Below, piece after piece: positions 5,752-13,844 of a stretch of DNA of 64,000 bases (the stretch's first letter is position 1; every line of letters begins with the position of its first letter). The DNA is taken from positions 123,194 to 187,193 of the forward strand of contig PHCB01000003.1 of the NCBI GenBank assembly GCA_002842095.1, in the 5' to 3' direction. The notes beneath the pieces were generated by a model that saw nothing but the letters and a program-made list of their open reading frames with translations, was not told the origin of the DNA and made no database searches. The position numbers were made by a program, and so were the translations under genes. This DNA comes from a candidate division BRC1 bacterium HGW-BRC1-1. Lineage in GTDB: Bacteria; Sumerlaeota; Sumerlaeia; Sumerlaeales; Sumerlaeaceae.

Positions 5752-8079
5752 TCACACCGCTTCGCTATAAGCCGCGTCCCACAGCGTCAGTTGTTTCATT
5801 GTCTCCCTCGGCTTTGCCTTTGGTTTCGCTTTGGTGGGGGTTTCGTCCAGTTGGTGGCCGCTGGGCCATAGCAGGCAGTTCATGGCCCGGCGCAGCAGTG
5901 TGATGTAGGCGTCGGGGTCGGCGGTTGTCTCGGGGTCGATCAACTGCATTAAGCGCACCCGGCGGTTGGGGTCGGTGTTGGCCTTGTCGGTCAGGATGTA
6001 GCGGATCGGCTGCCCCGCGTGATATTCCAGACCGGCCTTGATGGACTGCCGCGCCGCCAGCGCCGACGCGCTGTTGCCGCGGTATTCGGCGGGTTCGCGG
6101 CTCAGCATGGTGGTGATCATCAGTTGCTCCAGCGGCACCTCGCAGCGGCGCAGCATCCCTTCGTATTCCTCCATGCGGCTGCGCATGGCCAGCACCCGGC
6201 GGCGATATTCGTCGGCCGTGGGGGCGGCGGCCAGTTCCGTCAGCAGTTCCTCCTGCACCGTGGCGATGAACGCGGGCGAATCGCCGCGCCGGCATTCGAT
6301 GCCGCGAAACTTGGTTTTTCCGTCGACGAACGCCCCGTAGTAGCGCGTGGGCACGGGGCGGTCGGCCACCTGTCGCGATGGCAGAAACGCCAGCCACTTG
6401 TAGATCCCCTCGAGTACGATGGTCAGCCCCGTGGCCGTGTTGATTTTCCCGATGAGGTCGTCGATCTCCCCGCGCTCCCATTGCGGCTTGAGGATCCACA
6501 CGCAGTCCACGTTGCCGTGCAGCACGCTCCAGCCGTGGTCGAGGCAGAGGTCCTTCACGCGCAGCAATATCTCGCGGGCGAAGGCGGACACCGCCTCGTG
6601 GGCCTCGATGCGTCCGAAGCGGGCGTTGCGGTAGCCGAGATAGCCGAAGCTGCACACGAGCATCCACTTCAGCGCGTTCTGGCGGTGGTCGAAGGATTGC
6701 CGCGCCTCCTCGTCGCCCTCGACTTCGGCGCGTTTGCGCAGGGCTTTGAAGGCCAGACGCCGCTCGATAACCGGCCGCAGCGCCTCCGACACCAATCCCG
6801 GCCGGTCGCAGATGCGATAGCCGATCTCCGGCACCGACCGGCGCGGGTGGGCGCAGCAGGGGCAGTTGATGGTTTCCGGCGAAACGTTGAAATTGGTCAT
6901 GATGGACGGGTACATGGCGGCGAAATCCAGCTCCACCACGTTCTCGTAAATGCCCGGACGGGGCGCGTAGACCAGTCCGCCGCGGTCGGTTTTCAGCAGC
7001 ATGGGCACCGGTTTCCACACCTCGGGCTGGGCCTTTTTCCACGGCACGAGAACCCCCCGGCGCCACGCCTCGGCCAGTTGCACGGACGTGATGCCGGTGC
7101 CGATGGAGCGGCGCGACCCGCGCTGGACCGGGTAGCGCCCCACGCGGGCAGCCTCGATCATGCCGTGAAAGCCGGTGTGTGAGACCATGAACGAGTTGCC
7201 GCCATCGAGATGCCACCGCCCGAAAAGCTCGCAGTCGGGCTCCTGAAAAAGGATTCGACCATAAGAGAAAAACGAACGCCCCTCGGTGCGCACCTTGCGC
7301 CCGCCGGGGGCGGGATCGCGGTCGAGGCGCAACACCGTGTCGCGCCGCGCCGCGCACGTCAGCAGCAGCGGCAGCAGGAAACCGTCGCCGTGTTGCGTCA
7401 CCACCACGTCGGGGTCGATGTCGTCCATCGCCCGCTGGAAACCGCCGAGGATGCCGTCGGCGCTGCGCCACTGATACGTGCGCCCATCGTGGGTGAGCGA
7501 GAGCGACTCGATGCGCGGGTTTTTCGCGTCGAGGAATCCGCGCCCCTCCAGATGCACCTGCCGCAGGGGCGGCATGGGGTAGTCGCGGTCCCACACGTCG
7601 TCGAGAATCTTGAACTCGGTGAGACGGCCGTCGGCGATAACCCCCGCGCACTGCGCCAGCGGGAAGGCGTTGTTTTCGTAAAACCAAACCTGGGCCGGCA
7701 ACAGATCGGCGTTGAACCACGAGAGATCAGGGAACTTTCGCGCAATGGCGGGCAGCGTACGCTGTTTCCAGGTTTCCACATGGAGAACCCGCATGGCGAA
7801 AACCCGCATGGGCTTGCCGGTCCACAGGTCGTTGCGTTCGGTCCAGCCCACCAGTTCCACCTCGCCCGCCTGATGGAGTCGGTCGGCGCAGCGCTCCACC
7901 TCCACGGAGGTCGCTCCGGCCAGATACACCGGCATGGGAAACGCCACCGCAACCCGCAGCGGCACACCCTCGGGCGTGATGAACCACAGCACCATATCTC
8001 CCCCCCGCGGATAAATATCAAACAACCACCCGCGAAAAGGTGCGCTTTTCATACTTCCCATATTTCCCATCCTACTCAC
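5752..8079 (-). CDS. PolB2-like family B DNA polymerase
   Basis: This 775-aa protein carries family B polymerase motif A (LDFAAMYPS, ~residue 385), a motif B region (LKWMLVCSFGYLGY, ~470, where the usual KxxxNSxYG is altered) and a motif C HGNVDC (~522) in place of YGDTDS, so only one Asp of the DTD pair remains. The FDIE exonuclease motif is absent, so proofreading is probably lost. A Cys-rich insert (CPCC...C) follows motif A. These traits match the archaeal/bacterial PolB2 group, implicated in lesion bypass in archaea. The Lys/Ala/Pro-rich C-terminus ends with QLTLW (residues 763-767), resembling a sliding-clamp binding motif. The GTG start overlaps the upstream stop as GTGA. The assignment to family B is firm. 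The PolB2 placement and role are inferred. Confidence 0.9.
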   Translation of the reverse strand: MSRMGNMGSMKSAPFRGWLFDIYPRGGDMVLWFITPEGVPLRVAVAFPMPVYLAGATSVEVERCADRLHQAGEVELVGWTERNDLWTGKPMRVFAMRVLHVETWKQRTLPAIARKFPDLSWFNADLLPAQVWFYENNAFPLAQCAGVIADGRLTEFKILDDVWDRDYPMPPLRQVHLEGRGFLDAKNPRIESLSLTHDGRTYQWRSADGILGGFQRAMDDIDPDVVVTQHGDGFLLPLLLTCAARRDTVLRLDRDPAPGGRKVRTEGRSFFSYGRILFQEPDCELFGRWHLDGGNSFMVSHTGFHGMIEAARVGRYPVQRGSRRSIGTGITSVQLAEAWRRGVLVPWKKAQPEVWKPVPMLLKTDRGGLVYAPRPGIYENVVELDFAAMYPSIMTNFNVSPETINCPCCAHPRRSVPEIGYRICDRPGLVSEALRPVIERRLAFKALRKRAEVEGDEEARQSFDHRQNALKWMLVCSFGYLGYRNARFGRIEAHEAVSAFAREILLRVKDLCLDHGWSVLHGNVDCVWILKPQWERGEIDDLIGKINTATGLTIVLEGIYKWLAFLPSRQVADRPVPTRYYGAFVDGKTKFRGIECRRGDSPAFIATVQEELLTELAAAPTADEYRRRVLAMRSRMEEYEGMLRRCEVPLEQLMITTMLSREPAEYRGNSASALAARQSIKAGLEYHAGQPIRYILTDKANTDPNRRVRLMQLIDPETTADPDAYITLLRRAMNCLLWPSGHQLDETPTKAKPKAKPRETMKQLTLWDAAYSEAV

Positions 8080-8345
8080 GGCGCGTCATCCTCGCGGTGC
8101 TCGTCCAGGCGCTGGCGCAGTTCGGCCAGTTCCATTTGCTGACCCAGAGCCACAGCCATCAGGATGGCCTCGAAGGGCAGCGGACGGGCCACGTTGGTCG
8201 CCTCGGCCGCATAGGTGCGCGCAAGGGTGAACAGGTGGTCGAAGGCGTCTCGTTCCTCGCGCGAGCGCAGCGCCCGGCGGAAGGGCGCCCAGGCGGCTTC
8301 CTGGGCCTGAAGGTAGGTGTTAAAGGTCGGCAGTGTTCGTCCCAT
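8076..8345 (-). CDS. Small conserved protein of the PolB2 cassette
   Basis: This 89-aa soluble helical protein starts MGRTLPTF and ends in an acidic tail. It has no transmembrane segment and no known catalytic motif. The ATG at 8345 is preceded by GAGGTAAC at good spacing. It lies 9 nt after the RadA-like gene and overlaps the polymerase gene by GTGA, so the three are almost certainly co-translated. Similar small proteins beginning MGRTLP occur, from memory, next to PolB2 genes in archaea. A role as polymerase partner or adaptor is inference only. Confidence 0.8.
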   Translation of the reverse strand: MGRTLPTFNTYLQAQEAAWAPFRRALRSREERDAFDHLFTLARTYAAEATNVARPLPFEAILMAVALGQQMELAELRQRLDEHREDDAP

Positions 8346-8354
8346 GATTGGGGG

Positions 8355-8918
8355 TTACCTCGTTGACTCGTTTTGTGGATGCCAGGGTCGCGCTTCGTTG
8401 CATGCGGCACCCACGATGCCGACCCACCAGTCGCGGCGCGGGTTGGTGGTGGGTTCATAGGTGACGGCGACGGGTAGTTTCCGGGCGGTTGTTTGGGTGA
8501 GGGATTGCATGGTTTTCGTGAGCGTATGTTTTTTCTCCCATAGCGGGATGGTTTCTTCTTTGAACAAATGTTCTATGCCCAGGACAAGAAAAAAAGGACG
8601 AGGCGACAACAAAACCAGACCCGGCACCAACTGCGCCACGGCGGCTTCAAGCTGGTGGATGGTGAAGGCCCGCGACACAAAAACGCGGTCCAGCGCCCAC
8701 GGCGCGCCCACCGTGTGGGAGAAGGCGTAGGCATCGAAACGGTTGGCGGCGTCGAGCACATAAACGTCGCGCCCCTCGGTCTCGGGCAGCGGAGCCAGGC
8801 GGCGCTGCAGAGCAGAAAGGTTGGCGTCGGCCGTTTCAATGGCCAGCAGCGCCCCCTCCCGCACCGGCAGAAACCAGTCGGGCGAAGGTGATGGTGAGGA
8901 TGAAGCGTAAGAGTTCAT
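8355..8918 (-). CDS. RecA/RadA-fold protein lacking a Walker A motif
   Basis: The 187-aa product (ATG at 8918; an in-frame TTG at 8942 would add 8 residues) carries blocks that fit the RecA/Rad51 core: a strand VYVLDAANRFDAYAF, then VFVSRAFTIHQLEAAV, then the hydrophobic strand FFLVLGIEHLF where Walker B would lie. No GxxxxGKT P-loop is present, so ATP hydrolysis is unlikely. It resembles degenerate RadA paralogues and, in logic, ImuA of the ImuA-ImuB-DnaE2 mutasome. It is the first gene of a tight operon ending with the PolB2-like polymerase. An accessory role that docks the polymerase at RecA filaments is a hypothesis. Confidence 0.7.
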   Translation of the reverse strand: MNSYASSSPSPSPDWFLPVREGALLAIETADANLSALQRRLAPLPETEGRDVYVLDAANRFDAYAFSHTVGAPWALDRVFVSRAFTIHQLEAAVAQLVPGLVLLSPRPFFLVLGIEHLFKEETIPLWEKKHTLTKTMQSLTQTTARKLPVAVTYEPTTNPRRDWWVGIVGAACNEARPWHPQNESTR

Positions 8919-9023
8919 AATGAAAGAATGGCAAAGCAGCAAAGGGCCGCCGTGTCAATGGCCATGAAGTCGACCTCGATCCACTACTTTATTGTTATTT
9001 AAATAATTAGCTTTATTTTTTAA

Positions 9024-12696: not shown

Positions 12697-13844
12697 CGCG
12701 CGGCCCCGTAGCTTATGCCCGTGTTGTCTTCGACCACAATGTCGGGATCAATTTCACGCACGGTGCGGGTGGCTTCTGCGAAAAAATCGCGGATGGTTTT
12801 CGCCCGAAAGAAGAGCCAGTCGTCGAACAGGTGTCCCTCGGTGTAGTGGGGAATTCCATCGCCGCCCCGCTTCCACGTGAGGATGTCATCGGGCCAGTTC
12901 ACCACTTTTTGTCCGATCGATTTTTCAAACGCCTCGCGGGCCGCCGGCGAGAAATCGCTCTGGATATCGGCGAAGCGTAGCGAATCCAGAATGATGCCGT
13001 CGGGCTTGTAAGCCGCCAGTTCGCGGATGACCGCGAGTTGGTAATCTCTCACGGCCGGGTTGTGGGGCGAGAGATAAATGGCGAGAGACGTGGGCCGTTC
13101 CTGTGAGGGAACGATGTTCGCCGTTTCCGTGGTCTTTGAGGAGGAATTTTCCACTCGCGCGGCAAGGCCGTAGCTCCAGGCTTCCCAGTTCAGCTTGCCA
13201 TCAAACACCATGCCGAAGGTGGTGCCGGTATCGGGGTTGCGCAGCACGCCGCCCGTAAAAACATTCGCCAGCAGATACACTTTCTGTCCGCGGGCGTGGG
13301 TTTCTTTCACGGCCGTGGCCACCGGATCAAAATCCGGAGATGGGGTAAAACCCCGCCACGAGGTGAGGCGGGGCGCGGTTTTGCTGGCATAGGTCACGTA
13401 GCCATGCACCGGCTTCACCTCGATGATGAGGGTGTCGATGTTGCGCTCTTTCATGCGGTCGAGCATGAGCGTGAGACTGGTAGCCGACCCGAAGGCCGCG
13501 AAATTATTATCCACATCGGCCCAGAGCGAAAGTCGGGGGTGAGTTGCGGGCGGGGTTGTGGCGGCGTCTGCGGTGGCGGTTGCCGTGGTCGCATCGGACG
13601 CGGAACTCGCCTTGCTGGCGCTGGGGGTAATGTCCTTCGCACCCGGCAATGTTGCGGTTGTTTTGGCGGTTTCCTCGGGCATGAATGCCGTCGCGGAAAG
13701 GGGGGCGTCGGCCAGTGAAGTCGAAGCCGTGGTGACTGATTTTCCCATTGCGGGCGCGACCGCGCAGGCGATGAGCAGAAGGGCCCGGGCAGCGCTGAAG
13801 ATCCGGTGTCGACGAACTTCCTTTGCGGGAGGTTCGCCCGTCAT
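12693..13844 (-). CDS. GHL10-type glycosyl hydrolase-like exported protein, short at C-terminus
   Basis: The 383-aa product from ATG 13844 has a signal sequence (ALLLIACAVAPAMG), a Thr/Ala-rich linker to ~residue 110, then a family-10-like TIM-barrel segment: HPRLSLWADVDNN, NIDTLIIEVKPVHGYV, GQKVYLLANVF, DGIILDSLRFADI and EIDPDIVVEDNTG. The second such protein in the window (53712-55586) continues for more than 200 residues past the corresponding point, whereas this one stops almost at once. The barrel may be incomplete. The gene starts 10 bp after the EIIA stop and overlaps punA by 4 bp. Activity on a glycan is inferred from family only. Confidence 0.75.
   Translation of the reverse strand: MTGEPPAKEVRRHRIFSAARALLLIACAVAPAMGKSVTTASTSLADAPLSATAFMPEETAKTTATLPGAKDITPSASKASSASDATTATATADAATTPPATHPRLSLWADVDNNFAAFGSATSLTLMLDRMKERNIDTLIIEVKPVHGYVTYASKTAPRLTSWRGFTPSPDFDPVATAVKETHARGQKVYLLANVFTGGVLRNPDTGTTFGMVFDGKLNWEAWSYGLAARVENSSSKTTETANIVPSQERPTSLAIYLSPHNPAVRDYQLAVIRELAAYKPDGIILDSLRFADIQSDFSPAAREAFEKSIGQKVVNWPDDILTWKRGGDGIPHYTEGHLFDDWLFFRAKTIRDFFAEATRTVREIDPDIVVEDNTGISYGAAR

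Follow-up and report, generated by a model that had tools for sequence, protein, structure and literature searches.

In bacteria, the family B DNA polymerase PolB2 is encoded in an operon that has already been described (Makarova 2014, PMC4104785; Timinskas 2025, PMC11791011) and that is listed as group G2 in PMC12926913. According to Timinskas 2025 (PMC11791011), iRadA-PPB2-PolB2 is the only gene order found in bacteria; the same paper models a heteropentamer with a PPB2 trimer and likens it to Pol V. A translesion role was suggested in part by Makarova 2014 (PMC4104785) and proposed by Timinskas 2025 (PMC11791011), in which the PolB2 of Sulfolobus is stated to be damage-induced and to extend mismatched primers. 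E. coli Pol II, another family B enzyme of bacteria, falls in PolB group G1 and has been connected with translesion synthesis (PMC12926913).

The DNA analysed here, referred to as the window, is a stretch of 64,000 nucleotides from candidate division BRC1 bacterium HGW-BRC1-1, and it carries an operon that belongs to the known bacterial iRadA-PPB2-PolB2 system. All three genes lie on the minus strand between positions 5752 and 8918. iRadA occupies 8355–8918 and encodes 187 aa counted from its ATG, or 195 aa from an alternative TTG start eight codons 5' of it; PPB2 (8076–8345) encodes a small three-helix protein of 89 aa; and PolB2 (5752–8079) starts with GTG and encodes a family B DNA polymerase of 775 aa from the PolB2 group. 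The first-pass annotation had taken the three genes as one cassette, and the gene coordinates bear this out, with a 9-nt spacer between iRadA and PPB2 (8346–8354) and a 4-bp overlap between PPB2 and PolB2 (8076–8079; GTGA on the minus strand). The G+C content is 64.4% for the operon and 60.3% for the window. The annotation had also guessed that PolB2 neighbourhoods might be known in archaea, which they are, as well as in bacteria (PMC4104785, PMC11791011), and its idea of a bacterial translesion or repair module matches the role proposed in those two papers, a function that is predicted.

With the described bacterial operon this locus shares its gene order, a RadA-like protein without an ATPase site, the MGRT arm, a substituted DxD, a decayed exonuclease, a clamp-like motif and, in some relatives, DUF72 neighbours. 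It differs in that the window has no intact LexA operator upstream, in that its host has no detectable Y-family polymerase, and in that the clamp-like motif is in PolB2, whereas Timinskas 2025 (PMC11791011) reports that iRadA carries it in more cases and that both proteins seldom do. Like the Pol V mutasome (UmuC, UmuD' and RecA), the system combines a polymerase, a RecA-family protein and small subunits with N-terminal arms (PMC11791011), but the window's polymerase belongs to family B and that of Pol V to family Y, the RadA homologue here is inactive where RecA is active, and PPB2 is found here where Pol V has UmuD'. The first-pass annotation had instead invoked the logic of the ImuA-ImuB-DnaE2 mutasome. 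In that mutasome a RecA-like protein is encoded beside a specialised polymerase, and the parallel holds as an analogy only. The comparison made in print is to Pol V; a Y-family ImuB was not found in the window's genome, and the polymerase is of family B, not C.

Among the searches tried, iRadA was identified by fold search alone. Its predicted model gave a confident match to the RadA/Rad51 core fold, without the N-terminal domain or the ATPase site, and Walker A (GxxxxGK[ST]) is absent from the 187-aa protein when the sequence is read by eye, in agreement with the earlier description of a RecA/RadA-like protein lacking Walker A. Nothing exceeded the curated cut-offs in Pfam or NCBIfam (weak Pfam rows only, E 0.047 or worse), and a PDB sequence search gave no match. 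PPB2 likewise had nothing over the curated cut-offs in Pfam or NCBIfam. Its single-chain prediction (pLDDT 85.1) has helices at residues 8–25, 29–51 and 58–86, and its N-terminal arm carries the family's diagnostic MGRT motif (8334–8345, minus strand), described in PMC11791011, with M1 to T4 invariant in 11 of 11 aligned rows. No PDB entry matched PPB2 at E 0.001; the top row came from a mycobacterial transcription initiation entry (chain F, E 1.4) and was too weak to be used as evidence for a sigma-factor-like fold. Such a fold is reported for PPB2 in PMC11791011.

The polymerase was correctly recognised as PolB2-like in the first pass, and it matches Pfam DNA_pol_B at 7.6e-28. The best NCBIfam model was NF004418 (type B polymerase) at 373.9 bits, below its cut-off of 692. 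In alignment with GDTDS of PDB 5mdn, NVD (residues 523–525; 6505–6513, minus strand) replaces the catalytic DTD, and the active site reads xVD in 12 of 12 PolB2 rows. Makarova 2014 (PMC4104785) took this replacement of the first catalytic Asp as inactivation, and under the 2014 proposal the polymerase would be catalytically dead and the three proteins would control replication or aid in the clearance of stalled forks. However, Sulfolobus PolB2, which carries the same replacement, is reported to be active and to be required for targeted mutagenesis (PMC11791011), and the second Asp, the YxG-like region and the fingers region are conserved over the 12 rows. We therefore regard a dead polymerase as improbable. 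We give very little credence to an accurate repair polymerase acting alone in the manner of Pol II, which has an active exonuclease and works as a single subunit. Membership of family B, a bacterial host and a tail resembling a beta-clamp motif would suit that role, but no Pol II model scored above 54.5 bits, compared with 373.9 for the archaeal-type model; the DTD active site and active DnaQ-like exonuclease of Pol II are lacking in the window's PolB2, whose exonuclease is decayed as judged on two motifs (the Exo II Asp is lost and Exo I did not align); and PolB2 is linked with iRadA and PPB2.

Two further motifs in PolB2 are those of the published system. SIGTGITS (7084–7107, minus strand), with S325 to I330 and S332 invariant over 12 rows, begins a segment that is predicted to mimic RadA oligomerisation and so to bind iRadA (PMC11791011), and the D(K/R) motif described in the same paper is present as DR (residues 365–366; 6982–6987, minus strand), also invariant over 12 rows. 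The tail contains a beta-clamp-like motif by sequence pattern, QLTLW (5779–5793, minus strand). In 10 of the 12 PolB2 rows (10 of 10 from the phylum; not G040 or G041) the pattern Q[LMP]x[FLM][LFWM] occurs within the final 30 residues, compared with 0.1–2.3% of shuffled tails, the pattern having been picked after the tails were seen. With a looser pattern, a clamp-like motif was found in iRadA in two of nine relatives (L008 and L013).

We consider it likely that the three products form one translesion DNA polymerase, as predicted for the family. iRadA, PPB2 and PolB2 would assemble and extend primer ends past damaged bases. By the published models, PolB2 would grip iRadA through the segment that imitates RadA oligomerisation, the PPB2 trimer would push one MGRT arm toward the active site, and the PolB2 tail would hold the sliding clamp.

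Of 40 genomes of the phylum, 12 have PolB2; each of these also has PPB2, which is present in 13 genomes altogether. In the other 11 genomes with PolB2, PPB2 lies upstream of it on the same strand in 10 and iRadA precedes it in 9, and the three-gene arrangement is found in the phylum more often than expected by chance. The gap between PPB2 and PolB2 is variable, reaching about 0.3 kb in L010. The shortfalls at L004 and L012 arise because contigs end there: the G020 contig (L004) stops directly after PPB2, and in G024 (L012) a contig end cuts PolB2, with a fragment of PPB2 at the edge of a second contig. Downstream of PolB2, a DUF72 gene is present in four of the 11 (L004, L005, L010 and L011; seen in the fetched flank, two of them checked by Pfam), and DUF72 neighbours are reported in other genomes (PMC11791011). 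Retention of both neighbours by PolB2 relatives, which the first-pass annotation had expected, thus held within the phylum but not in G040 and G041 (L002 and L003), where PolB2 has no adjoining iRadA or PPB2 and the pair is at another locus, so adjacency is common rather than universal. G011 has an iRadA-PPB2 pair, with iRadA cut by a contig end, and no PolB2 within 6 kb; PolB2 was not found in this genome, which is 81% complete. Split iRadA-PPB2 pairs (L099, L100 and L157) are not among the bacterial variants described in the published text consulted.

Both PolB2 and PPB2 are absent from the seven other genomes of the window's family. In a PolB2 tree of 12 rows, the window joins G020 and G021, of another family, with support 100/99. 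Given the absence of PolB2 from the other family members, the sequences suggest that the operon was probably gained laterally by the window's lineage; at 60–62% identity to the PolB2 of G020 and G021, such a gain would not be recent. Loss of the operon from the other family members may be an alternative.

Upstream of iRadA, the relatives have a candidate LexA operator. A direct repeat, TTCG-N7-TTCG, occurs within 60 nt before iRadA in eight of nine relatives, compared with a frequency of 0.65% in random 60-mers drawn from those loci; it is absent from these 60 nt at L013. TTGAC stands 35–36 nt before the iRadA start in seven of the nine. Direct-repeat LexA operators with an 11-bp period are known in alphaproteobacteria. 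We surveyed lexA itself at fetched loci, 30 in all. Of 26 lexA genes from other families than the window's, 12 have the exact repeat in front of them (2.9% of random stretches) and 14 do not; when one mismatch is allowed, 22 of 26 have it (18% of random stretches). The more specific TTCGCTTN4TTCG gave 27 sites in four relatives versus nine for the reversed control (11 versus 5 in G019, 7 versus 1 in G021, 7 versus 0 in G018, and 2 versus 3 in G027, where it is not commoner than the control). Four of the 27 sites are those of the PolB2 operons and two others have no locus. Among the remaining 21, one lies before recA and two before recN, all in G019, and one further site precedes a DinB-superfamily hydrolase-like gene; no SOS gene was recognised at the rest. 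In G019, Pfam identified RecA at 8.4e-129, and the gene we read as recN has a RecF/RecN/SMC N-terminal domain at 8e-14.

As the repeat found before iRadA also stands before many lexA genes and, in G019, before recA and recN, SOS control of the relatives' operon through LexA bound at the direct repeat is likely. LexA would repress the operon at the repeat abutting the start codon, and the operon would be switched on in the SOS response. In the open literature searched, we found no report of bacterial PolB2 operons with LexA operator sites, and the main text of Timinskas 2025 (PMC11791011) does not contain the words 'operator', 'SOS box' or 'promoter'. This repeat also bears on the idea that the polymerase replicates an integrated mobile element and is not part of a damage-response module of the host, which the patchy distribution (none in seven of seven other family members), the placement of the window's PolB2 with another family and distant relatives on haloarchaeal plasmids, among the matches listed, would favour, but which is highly improbable with a repeat that the relatives' operon shares with lexA, recA and recN and an active site of PolB2 type.

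The window's own genome presents a different picture. Within its family, GAACN4GTTC precedes lexA at four of four fetched loci, including its own, versus 6.8% of random stretches (six genomes gave a match above the cut-off, and the four loci come from these), and it precedes only one of 26 lexA loci outside the family. LexA operators appear to vary within the phylum, with the direct repeat in most families and GAACN4GTTC in the window's family and G004. Upstream of the genome's recA stands AAACCTTTGTTC, which by eye differs from this box at one position. Before the window's iRadA there is no GAACN4GTTC within two mismatches. The best direct-repeat score there is 4.2, which does not rise above background (95th percentile 4.5), and that site is not at the relatives' operator position. 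At the equivalent place before the start, TTTG-N7-TTCA (8921–8935, minus strand), with mismatches at two of eight positions to TTCG-N7-TTCG, is a possible remnant operator, and TTGACA (8953–8958, minus strand) a possible -35 element comparable to the relatives' TTGAC. With the operator degraded and the host's lexA box absent upstream, the operon would be free of direct LexA control; from the sequences, we judge the chances of such a release to be evenly balanced. The genome also has a second LexA-like gene (L091, G000:C1:102500-106500), which in our reading adjoins an apparent serine recombinase.

Inside iRadA, the 12 bases GAACAAATGTTC (8562–8573) are identical to the genome's own lexA box. 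This is probably a coincidence, and we did not take the box as good evidence for regulation. GAACN4GTTC occurs 56 times per strand in the genome versus 49 for the reversed control; 29 of 30 examined sites (all but L137) lie within stop-to-stop frames of at least 120 aa on either strand, a loose criterion; and for the conserved EHLF codons, a hand calculation from codon frequencies puts the probability of fitting the pattern at about 0.2.

Neither IMS (PF00817) nor IMS_C (PF11799) has a match in the assembly of the window's genome (3.77 Mb in 34 contigs, 94.8% complete). IMS is found in 37 of 40 phylum genomes, including all seven other members of the window's family, and the other two without it, G023 and G025, are 75% and 80% complete. 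At 94.8% completeness, the assembly may lack a Y-family gene that the cell has. A search of the genome with PolB2 at E 0.001 matched PolB2 alone, so there was no sign of another close polymerase of family B. Allowing for what the assembly lacks, we lean toward PolB2 being the only dedicated translesion polymerase of the cell. A second DnaE-like protein of 1075 aa (L158/L156; G000:C3, match 12905–13663) retains a DnaE-like N-terminus and a clamp-like QTNLF and, in an alignment of 26% identity, lacks the PDIDID of the main DnaE; the protein is probably not an active polymerase. PolB2-like family B polymerases also occur on 110 plasmid records, of which the ten listed are haloarchaeal and 29.5–35.2% identical. 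We do not claim a trade-off between PolB2 and a second Y-family gene: two IMS matches were found in none of 12 PolB2-positive genomes versus eight of 28 PolB2-negative ones (Fisher two-sided p 0.079, uncorrected for kinship).

A broader scenario would have a laterally acquired PolB2 mutasome replace the Y-family polymerases and escape LexA, to act as a constitutive sole translesion polymerase or to be recaptured through the box in iRadA, its old operator having decayed as the host's LexA reads a different palindrome. We put this forward tentatively and think it rather doubtful as a whole. The relatives' direct repeat, the window's differing lexA box and the missing Y-family polymerase go beyond the published account, as far as it was consulted. 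Altogether, the PolB2 mutasome is now placed in a further bacterial group; there is sequence evidence that PolB2 operons of bacteria carry an SOS operator, for which we found none in print in the open literature; and the window's organism is a natural host in which PolB2 may act without a Y-family polymerase, which would make its role directly testable.
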